From a virus: a DNA stretch of 30,937 bases. Made by a program: the position numbers and the translations under genes. The DNA lies in IMG/VR virus record IMGVR_UViG_3300036768_000205, positions 1 to 30,937 of that record; one strand, 5' to 3'. Shown here piece by piece: positions 7,222 to 20,202 of the stretch. Every line of letters starts with the position of its first letter. Positions within the stretch are counted from its first letter, which is position 1. The notes beneath the pieces were generated by a model, which was not told where the DNA came from, did not search any database, and saw only the letters and a program-made list of their open reading frames with translations.

Positions 7222-9063
7222 ATGCCCATCACCATTGCCGACCTGCATATCCCCGAACACGAAATGAAAGCCCTGGACCAGGCATACTTCATCAACGATG
7301 CCTGGCTCGGCGACCTGGAACTGATTGCTGCCGCAATTGATACCAACCAGCCGCCAAGCCGCATTCCGGCAACGCAGCCCTGGGCGCTGATTGCCGAGCA
7401 GATACTGAGTAACGTGACCATGGGTGATGGCATTACCCCGGCAGCCCTGCGAAATGCAGTAACGATGGCTATCGGGCGGGCGATTGAATGGCGGCGCAAC
7501 GCCGATAAACGCTCGAAGATGACCAGCAAACTGAACGCGCTGAGGGCGGCGCGGGTGATCAACCCATACCTGGAATCGCCAGATGAGGACCTGAAAGCGC
7601 GGATTACCACAACACTGGTGGACAAGGAAACATCCGCTTTAGAGCGAAAACAAATCGCAGAAGCGCTGCTGCTCGACTGGCTGGGGGCGCATGGGCGGTT
7701 TATCCGCTCCGCTGAGGGGTTTATCCATTACCTGTATGAGAAGACGCACAAACTGTATGACCTGGAATCTACAGCGTGGGACGCGTGGCTGCACGCACTG
7801 ACGGGAGTCAACCCGGCGCTGACGGATTACAAGGTCCTTCTCAACGCCACCCAAAGCGCAGCACACAATCGGGGGCAGGAGCACTCAGTAGTGAAACTGG
7901 CGCATTGGGACAACGCTGCGAAAATTCTGCGCGTGACCCGTTTCGATGGGGTGACATACGTTTTGACCGGAACGGAAATCTGTCAGGAGAACAACGGCGA
8001 TGGTCCAGTCATCTTCCTGGATTCTCCCATCTGGCAGGCGTATGACCCGGACTTCGACGCGGGCTTTGAAGACTTCATTGCGCCGTTTACGCGACAAACG
8101 TGGGGCAGTACGTCCCAATGGGCGGCGGCGGTTTGGGCGCTTTCCCTGTTTTTCACCGAGTTGTGCCCAACGCGCCCGATTGCAGTTTTCCTTGGCGAAA
8201 AGGGAAGCGGAAAAAGCATGACCCTGCGCATGATTTTGCGCCTGCTTTTTGGCAGTATGGCTGAACTGCTGGCAACGCCGGATAAACCAGATGATTTTCT
8301 GGTGAGCGCTTATCACAATCACGTTTTGGCGCTTGACAATTTTGACGGTTTTCAGGAGTGGATGCGCGACCGCCTGGCCGGGCTGGCAACTGGTATCGAG
8401 ATGCAAATGCGCACCCTGTACACCAACAAGGAACTGACGCCTATGAAATTCCGCTCCTGGCTGGCGGTGACGGCGCGGCAGCCGGACACGCTCAAACGTG
8501 ATGACCTGGCAGATCGGCTCCTGATTTTCAAACTGGAGCGCATCAAAGATGAACAACGGACACGTGAGGGATATTTTTTGGATGCGATTGCCGCCATGCG
8601 TAATCGCTGGTGGGGCGGCATGCTCAATCTGTTGAACCAGATAGTGGCTTACTTGCGCAATAACAACCTGCCCGACAACAGCCCGCTGCGCATGGCAGAT
8701 TGGGAGGTTTTCGGGCGGGCAGTCTCTCAGATGATGGGAAAAACAGATGAATGGAAGATGATTGTAGCCGAACTGAAAAAGGCTCAAGGTGAATTTCTGG
8801 CTGAAGACATCATTGTCGAGGCGATTCAAAAGTGGCTGGAAATTCCTACCAACATCAACCGCGAGGTGCTGGCACGTGACCTGTACGCCGAATGTGAAGC
8901 GGTCCTGTTCAACGGCAATAAGCCGGATAGTGACTGGCCGAGAAGCGTTAAGTCTTTCTCACACCGGCTTTCAAATGTTGCTGAATATCTGAAAAATGAA
9001 TTCGGTATGAAAATTCGTCCAGATAATCGGCATGGCAATTGGATTCAGTTTGTAAAAGCATGA
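7222..9063 (+). CDS. AAA+/SF3-like replicative helicase ATPase
   Basis: A protein of 613 aa. Walker A GEKGSGKS lies near residue 325 and Walker B VLALDNFD near residue 370, followed by an arginine-rich sensor region (AVTARQPDTLKRDDLADR). The N-terminal 300 residues have no recognised motif. The C-terminus is a probable winged-helix region (EVLARDLYAECEAVLF ... PDNRHGNWIQFVKA). With a PrimPol-CHC2 primase just downstream it most likely unwinds DNA for phage replication, as D5-type helicases do. The stop codon is the first three bases of the inverted repeat at 9061. Palindrome at 7402-7412 (QILSN). Confidence 0.7.
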   Translation: MPITIADLHIPEHEMKALDQAYFINDAWLGDLELIAAAIDTNQPPSRIPATQPWALIAEQILSNVTMGDGITPAALRNAVTMAIGRAIEWRRNADKRSKMTSKLNALRAARVINPYLESPDEDLKARITTTLVDKETSALERKQIAEALLLDWLGAHGRFIRSAEGFIHYLYEKTHKLYDLESTAWDAWLHALTGVNPALTDYKVLLNATQSAAHNRGQEHSVVKLAHWDNAAKILRVTRFDGVTYVLTGTEICQENNGDGPVIFLDSPIWQAYDPDFDAGFEDFIAPFTRQTWGSTSQWAAAVWALSLFFTELCPTRPIAVFLGEKGSGKSMTLRMILRLLFGSMAELLATPDKPDDFLVSAYHNHVLALDNFDGFQEWMRDRLAGLATGIEMQMRTLYTNKELTPMKFRSWLAVTARQPDTLKRDDLADRLLIFKLERIKDEQRTREGYFLDAIAAMRNRWWGGMLNLLNQIVAYLRNNNLPDNSPLRMADWEVFGRAVSQMMGKTDEWKMIVAELKKAQGEFLAEDIIVEAIQKWLEIPTNINREVLARDLYAECEAVLFNGNKPDSDWPRSVKSFSHRLSNVAEYLKNEFGMKIRPDNRHGNWIQFVKA

Positions 9064-9175
9064 GGGTATTGAGGGTATTAAAAGGCACTTTTCATTAACT
9101 TTCTGTTGCATGCAAATTTTAAAGAATTTACAGAAACTTTTTAAAAATGGCATTTCAATACCCTCAATACCCTCA
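9061..9175. repeat. 19-bp inverted repeat of doubled 9-mers with AT-rich core (candidate origin)
   Basis: TGAGGGTATTGAGGGTATT (9061-9079) is perfectly repeated in inverse orientation at 9157-9175. Each arm is two direct copies of GAGGGTATT. The 77 bp between are AT-rich with A/T tracts and TGCATGCA. The site lies between the helicase and primase genes, a position and composition fitting an iteron-type replication origin or a regulatory site. It also allows a long RNA stem in the helicase 3' end. Confidence 0.6.
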
Positions 9176-10729: not shown

Positions 10730-11673
10730 AGATTTTCTGGACCTTCCTGCTGGCTCTTTCCCTGACTGCCTGCGCTACAGAGACAGTCACGCCGCTGGCG
10801 ACGCCTACCCCGCCACCGCAGCCTGGAGCGGCAGACCTGGCGGCAACGATGATCTATCAGCAGATTGCCATCGAAGCGACAAAATCGGCGGCAAATCAAC
10901 AGGCGGAGTTGCGCAATGCCATGTGGACGGCTACGGCTCAGGCGGGAGAGCGTGCGACAATGGCTGCTCAGGCCGCCGCAACCGCTACAGAGCGAGCGAT
11001 AATGGCAACAGCAACTGAGCGGATTCGGGCTGAGGGTGCAACGGCTACACAGCAAGCGTTTTATCTGCACGTTACACAAACACAGCAATCCTGGCAGGCT
11101 ACGGCTCAAGTACAGGCAGCCCATGATACTGCGACTGCTATTGCAGCCCCGATGTATGCTACTGCTGAACGGGCGCAATTGGACGCCAAAATTGCTCTGG
11201 CCACGGCACAGGTAGCAGAAGCAGACCTGGCTGTGCGCCGTCAGCAAATGAAGAATGGACTGGATGCCTTCGGGCCGTGGGCAATTATCTTTCTGGCGCT
11301 GGCAGTTGCTGGTCTGTGGGTTTATTTCAGCAGCCGCCTGCGCACCATCGAACGCGGGGCACACGGACTGCTGCCGGGGGTAGTACTCCAGACAAAAGGT
11401 GGCACTGTAGCGGCAGACCTGGAAAATCTGGCTGCAACTGGCTACCGGTTCCGCCCGGACGGGTCAGTGGATACCCTGACCAGCGATGCGGATGTCTTGC
11501 GCCGCAAGCAGGCAGTGCAGGCGATTGGCAACCTACCACCATCCAAACCGCCGAAGTTGGAAGTCGGGCAGATGTTTTCGGTTGGTTCCGGAGGTCGAGT
11601 TACGGTAGTGAGCGCAACCAGTCACGACAAAGCACTGGATGATTACGAGGCGCAACTGGCGGAGGAAGTATGA
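10723..11673 (+). CDS. Lipoprotein with Ala/Thr coiled coil and internal membrane span
   Basis: A protein of 316 aa. Signal peptide with lipobox LTAC (Cys17), then a Thr/Pro linker (TPLATPTPPPQPG), then an Ala/Thr/Gln/Glu-rich coiled coil of about 140 residues (TATERAIMATATERIRAEGA). A second membrane span follows at about 185-203 (FGPWAIIFLALAVAGLWVYF) and then a soluble C-terminal domain of about 110 residues. So both a lipid anchor and a span could hold it, with the coiled coil outside the membrane. Such a protein is unusual in a siphovirus replication/packaging interval. Confidence 0.7.
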   Translation: MVKIFWTFLLALSLTACATETVTPLATPTPPPQPGAADLAATMIYQQIAIEATKSAANQQAELRNAMWTATAQAGERATMAAQAAATATERAIMATATERIRAEGATATQQAFYLHVTQTQQSWQATAQVQAAHDTATAIAAPMYATAERAQLDAKIALATAQVAEADLAVRRQQMKNGLDAFGPWAIIFLALAVAGLWVYFSSRLRTIERGAHGLLPGVVLQTKGGTVAADLENLAATGYRFRPDGSVDTLTSDADVLRRKQAVQAIGNLPPSKPPKLEVGQMFSVGSGGRVTVVSATSHDKALDDYEAQLAEEV

Positions 11674-12998
11674 CCCCTACTGAGTATGCTGAACGGCTTG
11701 TTTCTGTGATTGAGCGCACCCTGGCGGGGTTGCGGCTGTACCCACCGCGGCAGTATGCGCTAAAGGAACGCAATGGACTGTGGTGGCTGGACTGTGTTTT
11801 TGATGTGGCTGCGGCTGGCAGAACAGTAGAAGTGTACGAGCGGGCGGCGCATACGGTGGGAGCGGCGATTGGTCGCCCGGTGTACACCAGCAATCATGTC
11901 GGGATGCGGTACGGCATCCTGCTGTCTCCCAAACCGCGTCTGCCGCAACGAGTTGATTTGCCGAGCGATGGCGTTACGCTGGACGTATTCCGGCTGGGTG
12001 TTTCGCTGCGCGGAGAGGTGACCGTATCGGCGCGGGCGATGGTGAATGCGCTGATCGGCGCCAGTCAGGGGGCGGGCAAGTCGAACATAATGCACCTGTT
12101 TGCGCACCAGGCGCTGGCGTTTGGCTGGAAGTTATACCTGGCGGACCCGCAGAGTCACACCTTCAACCCGGACCGCTGGAATGGGTTGGCGGCAATGGCA
12201 GTGGCAGGGAGTGTGGATGACTTGCGTAAGGTGCTGGATGCGGTGGAGGGTGCCCTGGCCGACCGCGTGGCGCAGTTCCGGGCGGCGGCGCAGACGCTGG
12301 GGCTGGTCCCAGCGGACCTGGACGCTTATAACGCCCAGATAGAGACGCCGCTGCCGCGCATTGGCCTGCTGGTAGATGAAGCCAACACTTACCTGGTTGA
12401 CCGGCGCATCCTGCAACGGCTGGCCGACCTTGCGCGGCAGGCGCGCAAATTCGGCATTCACCTGATGCTTGCCGGGCATGACTGGCGGGCTCAGGACGTG
12501 CCGCGCGAACTTTCGGCGATGCTGCCAACCCGCATTGCATTGGCAGTGGCAGATAGCACCAGCGCGCGGGTGGTGTTGGATAATGAGCGTTGGGGTAAAT
12601 GGTTGATAGGCAAGCCGCCAGGGCGGGGTGTGTTGAAACTGGGACAGTTTGTACCTATGCAATTTTACCTGGCGGGCGATCTGCCGCAGGGTGAGCACGT
12701 TTTGCCGTTGATGGAGACCGAACGGCAGATTGCGGAGAAGGCTCTGGCGGAGACCGGCGGCAAGATCAGCCTGGATGTTTTGATGGGGTGGGGGCTTGGT
12801 CAGCGTGAAGCACGGCGTCTTCAGGATACCTGGAAATCTCGTGGCTGGGCAGAGATTGACCCGGCGCGCAGGAATGGTTTGTATATCACCTCAAAATTAA
12901 CCGGTTTGATTGACAAACTGACAAACTCGACAAACTTGACAAACTGCCCTGAAACGGCTGACAAACTGACAAACTGCCCCGACAAACTGACAAACTGA
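11670..12998 (+). CDS. FtsK/HerA-type DNA translocase with winged-helix tail
   Basis: A protein of 442 aa. Walker A GASQGAGKS (about residues 130-138), Walker B IGLLVDEAN (about 230-238), and an FtsK/HerA ATPase core with GIHLMLAGHDW. Residues about 350-405 (ISLDVLMGWGLGQREARRLQDTWKSRGWAEI) look like a winged helix, as in the FtsK gamma domain that reads KOPS. The last 30 residues are a DKLTN repeat made by the 8-bp DNA repeats at 12912-12996. It could move double-stranded DNA in conjugation-like transfer or partition. Overlaps the lipoprotein gene (ATGA). Palindrome at 11677-11687 (PTEYA). Confidence 0.8.
   Translation: MTPTEYAERLVSVIERTLAGLRLYPPRQYALKERNGLWWLDCVFDVAAAGRTVEVYERAAHTVGAAIGRPVYTSNHVGMRYGILLSPKPRLPQRVDLPSDGVTLDVFRLGVSLRGEVTVSARAMVNALIGASQGAGKSNIMHLFAHQALAFGWKLYLADPQSHTFNPDRWNGLAAMAVAGSVDDLRKVLDAVEGALADRVAQFRAAAQTLGLVPADLDAYNAQIETPLPRIGLLVDEANTYLVDRRILQRLADLARQARKFGIHLMLAGHDWRAQDVPRELSAMLPTRIALAVADSTSARVVLDNERWGKWLIGKPPGRGVLKLGQFVPMQFYLAGDLPQGEHVLPLMETERQIAEKALAETGGKISLDVLMGWGLGQREARRLQDTWKSRGWAEIDPARRNGLYITSKLTGLIDKLTNSTNLTNCPETADKLTNCPDKLTN
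12912..12996 (+). repeat. Eight direct repeats of GACAAACT at the 3' end of the translocase gene
   Basis: Exact GACAAACT copies start at 12912, 12920, 12929, 12938, 12960, 12968, 12981 and 12989. They form two blocks separated by GCCCTGAAACGGCT, with GCCCC between copies six and seven. They encode the Asp-Lys-Leu-Thr-Asn tail. They could be an iteron, partition or transfer site, recalling the 8-bp TraB recognition repeats of Streptomyces plasmids. Confidence 0.8.
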
Positions 12999-13776: not shown

Positions 13777-14109
13777 ATGATTGTGCAACGTACTGATAAG
13801 GTTGTAACCTGTAAGATGTGCCAGGCGGAACTTGGGCGCGTGTATCTGGTGGGGGATGATGTCGAAGCGCTGATGGTTGGCAGGCTGCTGGTGTTTGATT
13901 TGATCAAAGGTGTATGCGTCAGTTGTGGGGCACCGTTTTTTTACAGCATACCGTTGAAGCGGTTCGAGAGTGTGGTGGATCGTCTGTTTTCCGATGATGA
14001 ATGGCAGGCAAAAGCCCGGCAGATGCGGCGGGAGGGGAAATCTTATGGGGAGATTGCCAAAGCACTCAATCTGCCGCGCTCAACGGTGTGGCGGATGTTT
14101 CAAAAGTGA
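13777..14109 (+). CDS. Zinc-ribbon plus HTH regulator (candidate late antiterminator)
   Basis: A protein of 110 aa. CKMC (residues about 12-15) and CVSC (about 47-50) form a zinc ribbon. The C-terminal AKARQMRREGKSYGEIAKALNLPRSTVWRMFQK is a resolvase/sigma-r4-type HTH. It lies immediately upstream of a promoter-terminator module before the terminase genes, the same place as lambda Q relative to its late promoter; lambda Q also combines a zinc-binding and an HTH part. A late regulator is therefore a fair guess. Start chosen at 13777; the SD is weak (GGGGG). Confidence 0.65.
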   Translation: MIVQRTDKVVTCKMCQAELGRVYLVGDDVEALMVGRLLVFDLIKGVCVSCGAPFFYSIPLKRFESVVDRLFSDDEWQAKARQMRREGKSYGEIAKALNLPRSTVWRMFQK

Positions 14110-14146
14110 AACAAGCGTTTCATATCGAATCGAAACATTTAGAACA

Positions 14147-14155
14147 TGGTATAAT
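14147..14155 (+). promoter_or_regulatory. Extended -10 promoter before terminase genes (module 1)
   Basis: TGGTATAAT combines a TG motif with a consensus -10; no good -35 box lies 16-18 bp upstream. Transcription would start near 14161 and meet the terminator at 14183-14217 after about 20 nt, so late expression would need read-through. Confidence 0.65.
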
Positions 14156-14169
14156 TCAAAGTGGGATTT

Positions 14170-14187
14170 TCGGAGTTTACCGCCCGG
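14170..14187 (+). repeat. 18-bp element shared with 19227-19244 (copy 1)
   Basis: TCGGAGTTTACCGCCCGG is identical in both promoter-terminator modules, while flanks and terminator stems differ. It can form a small CGG-AGTTTA-CCG hairpin and its last bases enter the terminator stem. Conservation between promoter and terminator suggests a factor-binding site on DNA or RNA. Confidence 0.75.
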
Positions 14188-14217
14188 ATGCGCAGTGACT
14201 TGCGTGTCTGGGTTTTT
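14183..14217 (+). terminator. Strong terminator between promoter and terminase gene
   Basis: CCCGGATGCGCA (14183-14194) pairs with TGCGTGTCTGGG (14201-14212) through 12 bp including wobbles, loop GTGACT, then TTTTTCTTTTTT. It lies only 11 nt upstream of the terminase small-subunit start, so it can attenuate the late operon. Confidence 0.8.
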
Positions 14218-14227
14218 CTTTTTTGGA

Positions 14228-14680
14228 ATGAGTATGCTGACAAACAAAAAGCGTAGGTTTATTGAGTACTACCTGCAGTCGTGGAATGCGACCAGAGCGG
14301 CGAGAGAGGCAGGTTATGCCTTCCCTGACCGTCAGGCCAGCCGCATTCTGAAGGACGCGGATGTTGTTGCTGCGGTAAAAGAGCGAATGCAGGAAGTGGC
14401 GATGGAAACAGATGAAATCCTGGCGCGACTGTCGCAACAAGCACGGGCAGACATCAGCCCCTACCTACTGAGTAGTGGAGAGCCAAACTGGGATGTTATC
14501 CGGCAGGCGGGTCATCTTGTAAAACGGGTAGCGAAAAATCGTAATGGCTGGGTGGTGGAATTGCATGACGCGCAATCGGCGCTGGCGATTCTGGCGAAGG
14601 CGCGGGGACTAATGGTAGAACGAGTGCTGCAAAATCAGTCACAGGTGAATATCTATTTGCCAAAGAAAGAAGAATTATGA
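14228..14680 (+). CDS. terS: Terminase small subunit
   Basis: A protein of 150 aa of the Terminase_2 type. The N-terminus KKRRFIEYYLQSWNATRAAREAGY is the helix-turn-helix that recognises phage DNA at packaging start; RQASRILKDADVVAAVKERM and a helical centre for ring assembly follow. A second start at 14234 is possible. The stop overlaps the endolysin start (ATGA). It follows the promoter-terminator module directly. Palindrome at 14465-14475 (LLSS). Confidence 0.85.
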   Translation: MSMLTNKKRRFIEYYLQSWNATRAAREAGYAFPDRQASRILKDADVVAAVKERMQEVAMETDEILARLSQQARADISPYLLSSGEPNWDVIRQAGHLVKRVAKNRNGWVVELHDAQSALAILAKARGLMVERVLQNQSQVNIYLPKKEEL

Positions 14681-15495
14681 AATACTCATATCCAACAAAT
14701 GAACGATTGCGAGTTGTGCAGGCCTGGGGGAATATAAATGCCAAAATGTATCCCGCGCCAACGTACCAGCATATGGGCGTTGACATCGGTGGTCCAGTTG
14801 GGGCGCCGATCTATGCTGCGGCGGATGGGGTTGTGGCGGAGGTAAACCTGACTGGCGCTCATGGATATGGGCGGCATGTTATCGTCGCGCACGAGTCTGG
14901 GGCATATAAAACGTTATATGCTCATCTGCATCGTGTGATGGTCAATGTCGGGGATGCTGTCAGCGGCGGGCAGCAGATCGGGGAGATGGGCGGCCAACCT
15001 GGAGATGATGATCCGATTGATGGGGCATCTACAGGCAGCCATTTGCATTTCGAGGTCATTCTGCCAAATCAGCCAGATGGGGATTGCGTCAAAACGTGGG
15101 CGGGGTACACAGTGGACCCGCTGCTGTATCTGACACGGCGGGCATATGGAGAGCCGCGCCAGGTTGGGCGGGTGGTTGCACGTCAGGGGGTGCGGGTGCG
15201 ATCCGATGCGAGTGTTAGCGCTCCACAGATCGGGGCATTGGGCAGCGGGGATAGCGTGCCGATCCTGGAATTAATCCATGCTGGGGCGGATGTCTGGGCC
15301 AGATTGTGGTCACTGCGGAAGGAGTATGCGGCAGTGAAATATCGTGGAGAAACGATGATATTTGTGGAAGAACAAGTTAAGCAAAGTCAACAACAAGTAT
15401 CTCAAACGGAAGAAGAAAGAAAAATACGAAATGATTTAATCGAACAAATCATTGCGTACCTGGAAAGTCTCAAAGTTAGAGATGGAAACAGTTAA
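14677..15495 (+). CDS. M23 metallopeptidase endolysin with SH3-like domain
   Basis: A protein of 272 aa. LytM/M23 motifs are complete: H32-x3-D36 (QHMGVD) and H122-L-H124 (GSHLHFEV), with YAHLH at 81-85; these bind zinc and cut peptidoglycan cross-links. Residues about 165-225 form an SH3b-like domain (VARQGVRVRSDAS ... GALGSGDSVPI). The last 45 residues form a Gln/Glu coiled coil. It lies between the two terminase genes rather than beside the holins, an unusual place. No signal peptide, so it probably needs a holin. Confidence 0.85.
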   Translation: MKYSYPTNERLRVVQAWGNINAKMYPAPTYQHMGVDIGGPVGAPIYAAADGVVAEVNLTGAHGYGRHVIVAHESGAYKTLYAHLHRVMVNVGDAVSGGQQIGEMGGQPGDDDPIDGASTGSHLHFEVILPNQPDGDCVKTWAGYTVDPLLYLTRRAYGEPRQVGRVVARQGVRVRSDASVSAPQIGALGSGDSVPILELIHAGADVWARLWSLRKEYAAVKYRGETMIFVEEQVKQSQQQVSQTEEERKIRNDLIEQIIAYLESLKVRDGNS

Positions 15496-16849
15496 TATTC
15501 GTCCACAGCCCAAACAGGAAGTCTTCTTGACCAGCAGCGCCGATATTGCCATCTTTGGCGGCGGGGCCGGTGGTGGAAAGACGTTTGGGCTGCTGTTGGA
15601 GCCGCTCTACCACGTTGGCAATCCCGATTTTGGGGCAGTCATATTTCGGCGCACCATGCCGGAGATCACGAAGGAAAAAGGAATGCTGGACGAGAGTATG
15701 AGCCTGTATCCCTTGCTAGGTGCGGTGTACAACAAGAACGAAAGCCGCTGGACGTTCCCCAGCGGGGCGCGGGTGTCGTTCAGCCATTTGCAGTATGAAA
15801 CGGATTTGGCGGCCTGGCGCGGGGCGCAGATTGCGCTGTTGGAGTTCGACCAGTTAGAGACATTTACCGAACAGCAGTTCTGGTACATGCTTAGCCGCAA
15901 TCGCTCTACCTGCGGCGTGAAACCCTACGTCCGCGCCACCTGCAATCCTGAACCTGGCTGGCTGGCTGACTTGCTAGACTGGTGGATCGGTGATGATGGT
16001 TATCCGATCATGGAGCGGTCGGGGAAACTGCGCTGGTTTGTGCGGAATGGTGAGCGGCTGGTCTGGGCAGATGACCCTACCCCCCTCCATACTGAGTATC
16101 CTGACTTGCAGCCGAAGAGTTTGACGTTTATTCCGGCGAATGTCTTTGACAACCAGGTGCTGATGGAGAAAGACCCTGGCTATCTGGCGAATCTGAAATC
16201 GCTTGCGCCGCTGGATCGTGAGCGCCTGCTGGCGGGGAACTGGAAAATCAAGCCGAGCGCCGGTAAGGTGTTCAACCGTGCGTGGTTTTCGGTTGTGCCA
16301 GCGGCCCCGGCGGGCGGGCAGACGTGCATTTATTGGGATTTTGCCGCGACTGAGAAAAGCATGAGCAAGCCCGACCCCGATTACACGGCAGCGGTGGTGA
16401 TGCGCAAAGTGGGCGGGCGATGGTATGTGCTGGACTGCATTGCCGCGCAGGTGGGACCTGCCGAAGTAGAACGAATGTTCGTGAACGTAACGCGGCAATG
16501 GGCGGAGCGGGCGCGGGCTGATGGGTCCACTTTTCTGGCGCGGTGGGAGCAGGAACCGGGGAGTGCATCAAAGCGGGAGGCGTCACGCATGGCCGCATTG
16601 CTGGCGGGGATTGACGCCCATGCGGTGCCCAGCCAGGGAGACAAAATCAGCCGGGCAAAGGCGATGAGCGCGCAGGCGGAGGCGGGAAATATCTCTCTGG
16701 TGGCCGCGCCCTGGAATACTGAGTGGTTGGAACACATGCACGGGCAACCGGATTTACCGCACGATGACATCATGGATGCTAGTGCGGGGGTGTTCAATGC
16801 GTTGGCGGGCGCGGGCCAGGTGATTTATGCACCGAGCATTTGGGATTGA
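15482..16849 (+). CDS. terL: Terminase large subunit
   Basis: A protein of 455 aa from the ATG at 15482, overlapping the endolysin by 14 nt. Walker A GGGAGGGKT (residues 26-34), a Walker B-like ALLEFDQLE, motif TCNPEP, and a C-terminal RNase H-type nuclease with IYWDFA and HDDIMDA metal ligands. It cuts concatemers and drives DNA into the prohead. Two palindrome sites lie in it: exact at 16089 (HTEYP) and degenerate at 16716 (NTEW). Confidence 0.95.
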   Translation: METVNIRPQPKQEVFLTSSADIAIFGGGAGGGKTFGLLLEPLYHVGNPDFGAVIFRRTMPEITKEKGMLDESMSLYPLLGAVYNKNESRWTFPSGARVSFSHLQYETDLAAWRGAQIALLEFDQLETFTEQQFWYMLSRNRSTCGVKPYVRATCNPEPGWLADLLDWWIGDDGYPIMERSGKLRWFVRNGERLVWADDPTPLHTEYPDLQPKSLTFIPANVFDNQVLMEKDPGYLANLKSLAPLDRERLLAGNWKIKPSAGKVFNRAWFSVVPAAPAGGQTCIYWDFAATEKSMSKPDPDYTAAVVMRKVGGRWYVLDCIAAQVGPAEVERMFVNVTRQWAERARADGSTFLARWEQEPGSASKREASRMAALLAGIDAHAVPSQGDKISRAKAMSAQAEAGNISLVAAPWNTEWLEHMHGQPDLPHDDIMDASAGVFNALAGAGQVIYAPSIWD

Positions 16850-16861
16850 TGGAGGTTACAC

Positions 16862-18190
16862 ATGGCAACGGTAATGGATTGGATTCGCAGTTTTTTCAAC
16901 AAAACCCCGGCAGACATTTTGTCAAAGCAGGCAGAGCAAATCAAACGAGTTGACCGCTTTGCGCGGGCATGGGAGGCATATTATGGTAAGTATCCTAGTA
17001 GTCTGCCAGTCAAGTCGGGAAAGATAAACGATAACGTAACGCTCAACTTTTCCCGGCTTGTCGTTGATCAGACGGTAGATTTTCTGTTTGGCAAGGAGGT
17101 CGTGTTTGAGATTGATGAAATGGCCGATACCCGCGCCGAGGAGTGGTTGAATTCCGTCTGGCAAGCAAACCAGAAGATGATTTTTTTGCAGAAATTAGCC
17201 GTCAATGGCGCAGTGTGCGGGCAGGTATTTGTTAAGATTAGCGACGGCGGGCTGTATCCGCGCCTGATTGCTGTTGACCCTGGTATCGTGGACGTTGAGA
17301 CGGAACCCGGTGACTATGAAATGGTGCGGGCGTTTACCATCACCTACCCGGCGGGTGATGTTGCACGGCGTCAGATCATCCGGCGCGATGGGGATGGGGC
17401 GGACTGGAAAATTGTTGACCAGAAGCGCGACAAGGACGCAATAAACTGGGAAACCGTACAGGTCACAGTTTGGACGCGTCCGTGGCCACCGATTGTAACG
17501 TGCCAAAATCTACCCGCGCCGAACGAATTTTGGGGTATAGCGGATATTGAGCCGGACGTTATCGGGCTCAACGAATCGCTCAATTTTGTGATGAGCAATA
17601 TCAACCGGATTTTGCGTTATCATGCCCACCCAAAAACCTGGGTGCGAGGTGTGCTATCGGCGGATAACCTGAAAGTTGGCGCGGATGAAACTATCCTGCT
17701 GCCGGACGGGGCGGAGATACACAATCTGGAAATGACCAGCGACCTGAACAGCAGCCTTGACCTTTACCGTCGGTTGAAGGAGGCGTTACACGAGGTGACG
17801 CGCAGCCCAGAAATTGCCAGCGGCAAGGTCGAAAACGTAGGTAATCTGTCGGGAGTGGCACTACAGATTCTGTACCACCCCCTACTGAGTAAAACGGAAA
17901 CCAAGCGGCGCATGTACGGCAGTTTACTGGTGGAGTTGAACCGGCGGCTGCTGGAGTTAGGCGGCTTTGGCGCGAACAACATCACCAAAATTCACTGGCC
18001 AGAGATGTTGCCGCGTGACCCGATGCAGGAACGGCAGGTGGCATTGCTCGACCAGCAGTTGGGCGTCTCGCGTGATACGCTGTTGCGACGGTTGGATTAC
18101 GACCCAGACCTGGAAGCGCAAAAACGCGCGGCGGAAGAGACGAATATCGGCGCCAATTTGTTGGCAACATTTGAGCAGGGTAAGTCGTGA
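16862..18190 (+). CDS. Portal protein (SPP1 Gp6-type)
   Basis: A protein of 442 aa. Family segments include NFSRLVVDQTVDFLFGKEVVF near residue 60, a Pro-rich PAPNEFWGIADIEPDVIGLNESLN near residue 220, and SGVALQILYHPLLSKTETKRRMY near 330. It forms the dodecameric ring through which DNA enters the head and to which the connector binds. It sits between terminase and the MuF protein as in SPP1-like phages. Stop overlaps the next start (GTGA). Palindrome at 17882-17892 (LLSK). Confidence 0.9.
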   Translation: MATVMDWIRSFFNKTPADILSKQAEQIKRVDRFARAWEAYYGKYPSSLPVKSGKINDNVTLNFSRLVVDQTVDFLFGKEVVFEIDEMADTRAEEWLNSVWQANQKMIFLQKLAVNGAVCGQVFVKISDGGLYPRLIAVDPGIVDVETEPGDYEMVRAFTITYPAGDVARRQIIRRDGDGADWKIVDQKRDKDAINWETVQVTVWTRPWPPIVTCQNLPAPNEFWGIADIEPDVIGLNESLNFVMSNINRILRYHAHPKTWVRGVLSADNLKVGADETILLPDGAEIHNLEMTSDLNSSLDLYRRLKEALHEVTRSPEIASGKVENVGNLSGVALQILYHPLLSKTETKRRMYGSLLVELNRRLLELGGFGANNITKIHWPEMLPRDPMQERQVALLDQQLGVSRDTLLRRLDYDPDLEAQKRAAEETNIGANLLATFEQGKS

Positions 18191-19179
18191 GTGACATCTA
18201 CCAGGTAACCGATGACTTTCGGCGGCGGCTGCTGAGGCAGGAACGAGAAGCGGCGGTCGAGATGACGCGGGCATATGCCAGAATTTGGATGCGGGTGAAA
18301 CAGGAAATTGATGACCTGCTGGCGGAGTGGGAACGGGATGGCGGCGTGAATGCTGGCCCGGATTGGGTTTATCGTTACAACCGGCTGCGCAAGTTGGAGG
18401 CGCAAATTCAAGCCGAACTAACCCGTTATACTGAGTATGCGGAACAGCGGATAGAGACTGAACGGAGGCGGGCGGCAAAACTGGGTGCAGAAGGCGCGCT
18501 GTTTCAGTTGGGGATTGCAGGGGAGTTCGACCGTTTGCCTGCTGGCGCGGTAAGGCAGGTTGCCGCGGCGATTCTGGCGGATGGGTCACCGTTGAAAATC
18601 CTGCTAGGGACATTGCCAGATAATGGTGCAAAAGTGGTGGGGGATGCGCTGATTCAGGGCATGGCACTGGGGAAGAGCGTGCGAGAGATTGCCGGAGATA
18701 TGCGGGTGGCACTGGGTGGCAACCTGACGCGGGCGCTGCGGATCGCACGGACGGAGACGCTGCGCGCATACCGTGAGGCAACACGGGCAACATATCGGAA
18801 GATGGGTGTGCAACAGTGGGAGTGGCGCAGCGCGCGGAACGAGCGGACGTGTGCGGTGTGCTGGGCAATGGACGGAAAACGGTTTAGCGTGGATGAACCA
18901 ATGCCCGCGCATGTCAATTGTCGGTGTGTAATGTTGCCAGTAACGGACACATGGGAGGCGTTGGGGGCTGTAGGTATTGATGAGTTGACGCAGCAAGAAC
19001 CCGCGCTAGAGCGTTTTGCAAGTTTGCGGCCTGACCAGCAATTAATGGTGTTAGGTCCAGCGAAATTTAGGGCGTATAACGACGGAGTAATAGAATTATC
19101 TGATCTGGTAGGCTGGAAGGTAAACCCGTTTTGGGGCAAAAGTGTATATGAGCGTAGTCTTGCAGAATTGAATTACTAA
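18187..19179 (+). CDS. Minor head (MuF/SPP1 Gp7-type) protein
   Basis: A protein of 330 aa starting at GTG in a 4-nt overlap with the portal gene. An N-terminal helical region is followed by RIARTETLRAYREATRATYRKMGV and the zinc-like CAVCWAMDGKRF ... PAHVNCRC motif that defines the Mu F family. It joins a few copies of itself to the portal inside the head. The palindrome at 18428-18438 gives YTEYA. Confidence 0.9.
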   Translation: MSDIYQVTDDFRRRLLRQEREAAVEMTRAYARIWMRVKQEIDDLLAEWERDGGVNAGPDWVYRYNRLRKLEAQIQAELTRYTEYAEQRIETERRRAAKLGAEGALFQLGIAGEFDRLPAGAVRQVAAAILADGSPLKILLGTLPDNGAKVVGDALIQGMALGKSVREIAGDMRVALGGNLTRALRIARTETLRAYREATRATYRKMGVQQWEWRSARNERTCAVCWAMDGKRFSVDEPMPAHVNCRCVMLPVTDTWEALGAVGIDELTQQEPALERFASLRPDQQLMVLGPAKFRAYNDGVIELSDLVGWKVNPFWGKSVYERSLAELNY

Positions 19180-19192
19180 ACTGAGTAAATTG

Positions 19193-19201
19193 TGCTATAA
19201 T
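19193..19201 (+). promoter_or_regulatory. Extended -10 promoter before holin genes (module 2)
   Basis: TGCTATAAT is a consensus extended -10. A degenerate palindrome copy AACTGAGTA (19179-19187) lies just upstream, where a -35/spacer contact would be. The terminator at 19241-19276 follows 40 nt later. Confidence 0.65.
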
Positions 19202-19226
19202 TTAGATGACAATTGATTTGGGTTTG

Positions 19227-19244
19227 TCGGAGTTTACCGCCCGG
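19227..19244 (+). repeat. 18-bp element shared with 14170-14187 (copy 2)
   Basis: This is exactly TCGGAGTTTACCGCCCGG as in module 1, but 25 rather than 14 nt after the -10 box, which argues that the element itself, not its distance from the promoter, is conserved. Confidence 0.75.
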
Positions 19245-19276
19245 CACGACTGGAGTTTCCAGGAGTGCCGGTTTTT
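19241..19276 (+). terminator. Terminator between module 2 promoter and holin gene
   Basis: CCGGCAC/GTGCCGG (19241-19247, 19265-19271) continues through a tandem GA/GA internal loop into CTGGA-GTT-TCCAG, then T5 and a further T-run. Its stem sequence differs from module 1, so the shape rather than the sequence is kept. Confidence 0.85.
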
Positions 19277-19309: not shown

Positions 19310-19675
19310 ATGATCGAGCTTCAAGAGATTGGCGTAAAGGTTTTGAATGCCATATTGATGGCAGCATTGCCTGCCTTGGCAGTATCGTTGACCGGGGCGG
19401 TCATTGCCTGGGCACGCAAGACATGGGCAGAGTTCCAACGCACTAAACCGAGACTTGCCGACCAGGTGGCCTTTTATGTACGGATTGCCGTCGAAGCCGC
19501 AGAACAGGCAGGCGCAGCAAAACTGGTGGAAGATAAAAAGCAATACGCACTGCAAATTGCACAAGCCTGGTTAAAACAGAATGGATTGGGAAGTATTGAT
19601 ATTGAATTAATTGCTGCTGAAATTGAACGCCAGGTCCGAGATATGAAGCGTTTAGAAGCTTATGCCAATCTCTGA
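19310..19675 (+). CDS. LLH-family phage holin
   Basis: A protein of 121 aa. One N-terminal membrane span (residues about 10-32, ILMAALPALAVSLTGAVIAW) is followed by an amphipathic helical tail with the LLH-holin pattern AVEAAEQAGAAKLVEDKKQYALQIAQAWLKQNG and a final helix IAAEIERQVRDMKR. Holins hole the membrane so the endolysin reaches the wall. AAGGAG SD; a longer in-frame start at 19265 lies inside the terminator and is rejected. Position between MuF and scaffold is unusual for lysis genes. Confidence 0.8.
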   Translation: MIELQEIGVKVLNAILMAALPALAVSLTGAVIAWARKTWAEFQRTKPRLADQVAFYVRIAVEAAEQAGAAKLVEDKKQYALQIAQAWLKQNGLGSIDIELIAAEIERQVRDMKRLEAYANL

Positions 19676-19940
19676 TTTATCTCTGCTATTCAGTGCTTTG
19701 GGCGGACTGGCAGGACTGGCAGCCCTGATAACGGCGATTGCATCGGCCAGGCAGGCGGCAAAAAAAACCGAATTGGACGCGCTCAGACAGACGATTGACG
19801 AGTTGCAGGAAGAAAACAAACGCTTACGCGCAATTGTCCATGAATTACAAATTGAAAATGAACAATTGCGAAAAAAACTGGGCATGACTGCATTTCGACA
19901 ACCTGTTCGAGGGTTGGAAACTCGCAATGATGTTGATTGA
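19662..19940 (+). CDS. Membrane protein with leucine-zipper tail
   Basis: A protein of 92 aa overlapping the holin by 14 nt. A span at residues about 7-27 (LLFSALGGLAGLAALITAIA) precedes a long coiled coil (LDALRQTIDELQEENKRLRAIVHELQIENEQLRKKL). It may be a second lysis factor or holin partner; no family recognised. Confidence 0.65.
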   Translation: MPISDLSLLFSALGGLAGLAALITAIASARQAAKKTELDALRQTIDELQEENKRLRAIVHELQIENEQLRKKLGMTAFRQPVRGLETRNDVD

Positions 19941-20202
19941 TTTGATTGTTTCTGCGTTTTTAGGATATGGCTTGCACCAGTCACGTGCATATACTGCAAA
20001 ATTGCCTGACGGATGGCGCGAGTTGACCAATTATTCGATTGGTGTCGCTGGAACTGGACCGTTATTCGTTTTTTGGTGGCACAAGCTGAAAGATGTTGTC
20101 CATCCATTCAATCGTGCGTTTCTGGCTTTTCTGCTGGCATTTATTGGCGTTGGCGCCGGCGTGGTAGCAGGATGGCTGATAGACACATTCAAGCAAGAAT
20201 AA
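19927..20202 (+). CDS. Small membrane protein, possible holin partner
   Basis: A 91-aa protein overlapping the previous gene. Hydrophobic segments at about 3-16, 38-52 and 66-84 (FLAFLLAFIGVGAGVVAGWL) and a charged end. With the holin and coiled-coil membrane protein it forms a three-gene membrane cluster probably used in lysis. A start three bases later (second Met) is possible. Confidence 0.65.
   Translation: MMLIDLIVSAFLGYGLHQSRAYTAKLPDGWRELTNYSIGVAGTGPLFVFWWHKLKDVVHPFNRAFLAFLLAFIGVGAGVVAGWLIDTFKQE

Follow-up and report, generated by a model that had tools for sequence, protein, structure and literature searches.

Late-gene control is poorly known beyond the lambdoid phages and a few model phages. 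Among the closest described systems, the Q protein of lambda uses a DNA element for its loading at a pause near the promoter (PMC7171158). AlpA of Pseudomonas aeruginosa enables the polymerase to bypass an intrinsic terminator just past the promoter; its recognition element is part of the promoter, and it binds directly to the polymerase (PMC7969949, PMC9371919). The Com protein of phage Mu is a zinc-finger RNA-binding protein that binds a hairpin motif in mRNA and activates translation of mom (PMC6483171).

The window, meaning the whole stretch of DNA that was analysed, is an IMG/VR virus record of 30,937 bases. On sequence grounds, two repeated sites in it are putative switches ahead of late genes, each made of a promoter, a conserved tag and a strong terminator. 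A preliminary description had placed an identical 18-mer before two late gene blocks, behind an extended -10 box and ahead of a strong terminator and terminase or holin genes, and all of these parts are present at both sites. A scan of the window located the 18-mer, TCGGAGTTTACCGCCCGG, as exact copies at 14170-14187 and 19227-19244 and no third copy with up to 3 mismatches (0.01 matches expected from shuffles). Ungapped extension of the two copies gave 26 nt that are 92% alike. The features are as follows, with the two -10 boxes read from the sequence.

13777..14106, + strand: candidate antitermination factor, Zn-ribbon with C-terminal HTH, 110 aa (A1/A2 family alignment)
14097..14136, no strand assigned: tandem inverted repeats GTTTCAAAAGTGAAAC / TGAAACAAGCGTTTCA / GTTTC..GAAAC, upstream of promoter 1
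14147..14155, + strand: extended -10 of promoter 1, TGGTATAAT
14170..14187, + strand: conserved element copy 1, core GGAGTTTACCGCCC at 14172-14185
14182..14222, + strand: intrinsic terminator 1, 14-pair stem and U-tract (-22.8 kcal/mol, z -5.3)
14228-14680, + strand: terS, terminase small subunit, after module 1 (PHROG match)
14677-15495, + strand: M23 peptidase, after module 1 (PHROG match)
15452-16849, + strand: ORF of terL, after module 1 (PHROG match)
16862-18190, + strand: portal-like gene (judged from the ORF by eye)
18187-19179, + strand: MuF-like gene (judged from the ORF by eye)
19193..19201, + strand: extended -10 of promoter 2, TGCTATAAT
19227..19244, + strand: conserved element copy 2, core at 19229-19242
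19241..19276, + strand: intrinsic terminator 2 with U-tract (-23.4 kcal/mol, z -5.2)
19310-19675, + strand: holin-family gene, after module 2 (holin families, E 2e-7)
19662-19940, + strand: putative coiled-coil protein of a lysis-type block after module 2
19927-20202, + strand: putative small membrane protein of the same lysis-type block

Both terminators begin within the 18-mer. The stem of terminator 1 spans 14182-14213 and is followed by the tail TTTTCTTTTT, and the outer stem of terminator 2 pairs CCGGCAC (19241-19247) with GTGCCGG (19265-19271) before TTTTT; the final bases of GGAGTTTACCGCCC double as the 5' arm of the terminator. Upstream of promoter 1, tandem GTTTCAN4TGAAAC repeats were present in the window and in the records L011 and L059. 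The form of the protein that joins a Zn-ribbon to an HTH is encoded by the window and L059, and the corresponding gene of L011 is cut by the contig end. These repeats are a likely operator, possibly one for the extra HTH domain of the Zn-ribbon protein. Within the packaging genes of the window, the endolysin-like M23 peptidase gene (14677-15495) lies between terS and terL, which directly adjoin each other, without that gene, in the close relative L011.

In the uncultured phages examined, the module runs in the order TGNTATAAT, a variable 15-50 nt to the conserved element, a GG(G)-rich patch, Y-GGAGTTTACCGCCC-R, a terminator hairpin, a U-tract and late genes. All module records are metagenomic, and most are fragments. 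A scan of IMG/VR for the core joined to a hairpin returned 28 stretches, 26 of which were judged genuine while L148 and L149 resemble chance, and the identical scan with a scrambled core returned 0. Relaxed scans gave about 25 distinct phage records with GGAGTTTACCGCCC running into a covarying hairpin and U-tract. With the variant core GGATTTACCACCC under the same hairpin condition, 19 matches were obtained, of which only G019 is real, the other 18 having neither module features nor a Zn-ribbon gene.

The preliminary description had also called for a search for the 18-mer in related prophages. A first 15-mer scan yielded mainly chance coding matches, together with the near-identical relative L011, in which both modules are present, as well as L016 and L031, two further phages that carry the full 18-mer fused to different hairpins; no close 18-mer was found in L067-L106, which are relatives via terL. 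The exact 18-mer had 5 matches in GTDB genomes, all by chance in coding sequence and none with the promoter-terminator layout, and a DNA search of INPHARED with the element gave a single 17-nt match (E 4).

Because the core letters were partly set by the search patterns, the fair evidence of conservation comes from the positions that were left free. Core positions 4 and 11, both free in one scan, were G and G in all genuine modules, and position 11, also free in an earlier relaxed scan, was always G in genuine modules there. In the unconstrained flanks, a pyrimidine stands at -1 and a purine at position 15 (29/29 modules each), GG occurs at about -9 to -5 in 27/29, and TGNTATAAT lies within 75 nt upstream in 12/29 as compared with a mean of 0.13 in shuffles. 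Where the whole 18-mer had been put forward as the conserved part, the comparison shows the conserved unit to be the 14-mer GGAGTTTACCGCCC with a pyrimidine before it and a purine after it.

The module terminators have a mean z of -5.45 and range from -19 to -41 kcal/mol. Their stems covary, with no change in the core (CCCGG/CCGGG, CCCAG/CTGGG, CCCGC/GCGGG, CCCAC/GTGGG), and the core overlaps the terminator stem in every module, the first paired base being core base 9-13. On its own, the leader shows no more fold stability than shuffled sequences do (mean z +0.3). About half of the leaders have a weak predicted GGG..CCC / YGG..CCG fold, which likewise does not exceed shuffles, and the stability of the leader gives no support to a preformed hairpin. 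Covariance models from Rfam gave no match at the gathering score. The first gene after a gate encodes terS, a portal, a scaffold, a tail chaperone or a holin-like protein with HNH-terS-terL next, the holin-like assignments having been made partly by inspection.

Two other readings of the element were set aside. A leader peptide or attenuator was considered for the SEFTAR frame, which is open in the window; stops that lie just ahead of the element in other phages (L048, L049 and L066, in frame, 1-3 codons upstream) led to its rejection. The promoter-repeat-terminator layout suggested a solitary CRISPR repeat (RNA anti-CRISPR); this was set aside on layout grounds, since the core is short, sits inside the terminator arm and has late genes next to it.

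The suggestion of more than one target promoter per genome was strengthened, as two or three module copies recur in other phages. In G011, G012 and G017, an exact or near-exact second module stands at a distance of 4-6 kb from the first; G019 carries three modules. The gate adjoining the Zn-ribbon gene is diverged in G016 (25813, - strand), in G019 (4340, + strand) and in G020 and G026 (directly after the Zn-ribbon gene), reading AGAGTTTACCGCCT, cGGATTTACCACCC and GGACTTTCCACCC, respectively, with G020/G026 sharing the last, and the later gate is canonical. Such a diverged gate beside the Zn-ribbon gene is possibly a weaker or differently timed one.

Other repeats were seen in these genomes. 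The palindrome TACTSAGTA, often CCCnATACTGAGTATnnnG, has 19 copies in the window, about 1.6 kb apart and mainly within genes:

497, 2169, 4067, 5178, 7403, 9528, 11678, 13754, 14466, 16090: TACTSAGTA copies 1-10
17883, 18429, 20314, 22149, 24042, 24594, 25750, 27653, 29097: TACTSAGTA copies 11-19

It is also dense in G012 (10 copies), G016 (30), G019 (8), G022 (6) and L059 (4) and absent in the remaining module phages; one copy in G012 overlaps the -10 of the second gate. The palindrome is a putative stoperator-like or other dispersed protein-binding site. The window additionally contains a tRNA-Ala (TGC) gene at 1389-1461 in the phage early region, a 46-nt inverted repeat at 9061-9175, 83% complementary and 23 nt apart, just past the large primase/helicase-like ORF, and, at 12911-12996, short direct repeats TGACAAACTGACAAACT in the 3' end of ORF 11670-12998.

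When the first loci were inspected, a gene directly ahead of the module was seen to encode a small protein that carries two CxxC pairs. In the window, its gene (13777-14106) is the last before module 1. Four cysteines are invariant in the family (C12-C15 and C47-C50, window numbering). A profile, A1, was built from 8 such proteins, and a second set, A2, has 16 members. Profile A1 matches 8/13 of the first records, a figure that is partly circular because those same proteins built it. Evidence free of this circularity is given by 13 further records found by DNA pattern only, 11 of which match A1; with L202, a later DNA-only find that encodes a Zn-ribbon protein as judged by inspection, the family is present in 12 of the 14 independently found records. 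It was found in 0/37 control phage records (Fisher p 6e-10; 8e-9 with near-duplicates merged), a co-occurrence that linkage of adjacent features can inflate. Among L003-L106 and L203-L221, the profile scored in module-bearing loci only. The Zn-ribbon gene is missing from 7/26 module records, all 7 being fragments of 4-15 kb.

The gene lies upstream of the first module in 15/18 Zn-positive genomes. In G018, G021 and G025, the sole module detected sits 4-5 kb from it, and the association persists in G018, G020, G021, G025 and G026 with the gene and the canonical gate 4-7 kb apart. It also spans phages whose terminases are, by inspection, of different-looking types. The zinc part of the family had no counterpart in Pfam or PHROG, and the sole INPHARED match of the Zn-ribbon protein was limited to the HTH part. 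AlphaFold modelled the ribbon with confidence (pLDDT mostly about 90); structure comparison of the models gave no clear relative, and fold searches gave weak matches only, some of them to RIG-I-like RNA-binding domains (E at least 0.6). Neither sequence nor fold comparison marks the protein as an RNA-binding antiterminator.

A terminator that is strong by itself and stands between a promoter and late genes, immediately after the former, implies that read-through is regulated, and the co-occurring Zn-ribbon protein is the natural candidate factor. Each module would then act as a gate in front of late genes: transcription would begin at an extended -10 promoter of host type and halt at once at the strong terminator, whose 5' arm belongs to GGAGUUUACCGCCC. 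The Zn-ribbon protein, whose gene immediately precedes the first gate, would, once made, recognise GGAGUUUACCGCCC at all gates and let the polymerase pass, and packaging, head, tail and lysis genes would be switched on together. The likeliest step is that the protein binds the nascent RNA and keeps the 5' arm of the terminator (CCGCCC) from pairing. We put the probability that the Zn-ribbon protein opens the late gates by antitermination at GGAGUUUACCGCCC, most likely through the nascent RNA, at roughly 55%; three points in this are inferred, namely binding of the element by the protein, read-through as the effect, and RNA as the target. The varying distance between the -10 box and the element argues against a promoter-bound site.

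The alternative that deserves most attention, which we nonetheless consider unlikely, is processive antitermination of the lambda Q/N type, in which the Zn-ribbon protein would load onto the polymerase where the element, as RNA or non-template DNA, is recognised, perhaps at a pause, and carry it past this and later terminators. The gene order of factor, promoter, terminator and late genes is lambda-like, the promoter-element spacing varies as it does for a nut- or ops-like element, and core bases G1, C10 and G11 would fit the elemental pause G-10 Y-1 G+1. However, a processive factor needs neither several gates per genome nor a constant overlap of site and terminator arm, and this constant overlap, together with a gate for each late block, favours local action on RNA over a Q-like processive complex. 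Additionally, the Q families PF03589 and PF06530 had no match in 13 module genomes, while the controls did match, and no Q family was among the Pfam matches of the 16 A2 members (E<=0.01).

Since the sign of an effect cannot be taken from co-occurrence alone, the protein could also be a repressor that strengthens termination or blocks the promoter, read-through being the default without it. This is improbable, as the terminators are strong by themselves over the whole energy range given above and the gene stands at the end of the early operon, the usual place of late activators. We consider it similarly improbable, and if anything slightly more so, that a small ligand or a host factor (in the manner of a riboswitch or of a host RNA-binding protein) acts on the element with the Zn-ribbon gene as a mere neighbour. 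The strict conservation of the sequence in phages with different-looking terminases would suit such a factor, but no stable aptamer fold or Rfam family was detected, and the gene-module association does not depend on close proximity. The sites might instead be ordinary intergenic promoters with boundary terminators, the repeat being copied or mobile DNA, as the likeness of the two window copies would suit; this is very improbable given that the hairpin sequences differ around the fixed core, the genes downstream are unrelated, and the scan returned 28 stretches with the true core and 0 with the scrambled one.

It is tentatively suggested, at somewhat less than even odds, that the modules represent a phage switch of a new kind, in which a zinc-ribbon family of ~70 aa reads a tag of 14 nt in the nascent RNA, one that overlaps the terminator stem, and opens several late operons at once; across a broad range of uncultured tailed phages, it would replace Q. 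The literature, the coverage of which was incomplete, yielded no account of a system of this type. Since the late operons carry one short DNA tag, and this tag is accompanied by a small protein family, sequence alone is enough to name the regulator, the target and the operons. If confirmed, this would be a compact switch of about 70 aa and about 60 nt, would offer a route to annotating late genes in uncultured phages, and would make it possible to test for a separate evolutionary origin of antitermination that uses neither lambda Q nor N.

Each of the known systems resembles the proposed one in part. As with AlpA, a terminator close to the promoter would be bypassed, and no sequence relation between AlpA and the Zn-ribbon proteins was seen. 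Com shares with them the form of a very small phage zinc protein, but acts on translation, whereas read-through is proposed here; a search of the window for its family, PF10122 (Zn_ribbon_Com), found nothing at E<=1 while 8 control genomes matched, and the family was absent from the Pfam families matched by A2 members. The antiterminators BglG and LicT come close in the proposed step, in that a protein bound to leader RNA (at the RAT) stops the 5' arm of a terminator from pairing. Their protein sequences are unrelated to the present ones, their targets are sugar operons rather than phage late genes, and no stable RAT-like leader hairpin was detected here; no A2 member had a Pfam match to the CAT RNA-binding or PRD domains.

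The comparison with lambda pR'-tR' made in the preliminary description stands for the layout and for the candidate factor upstream of the first module, and does not stand for homology or for the position of the element. As in lambda (and with Q21 and Q82), a late promoter is followed by an intrinsic terminator and then late genes, and a regulator gene, here that of the candidate Zn-ribbon protein, lies directly upstream, as Q does relative to pR'. The Q-binding element sits at the promoter in a fixed geometry, whereas the conserved element here would be transcribed and overlaps the terminator arm; the lambda terminator lies well downstream, unlike the module core, which overlaps the terminator stem. 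Neither homology nor the placement of the element allows the present phages to be counted in the Q system, and 2-3 gates per genome further set them apart. The logic nevertheless matches that of pR'-tR', and the preliminary description therefore saw the right kind of thing.
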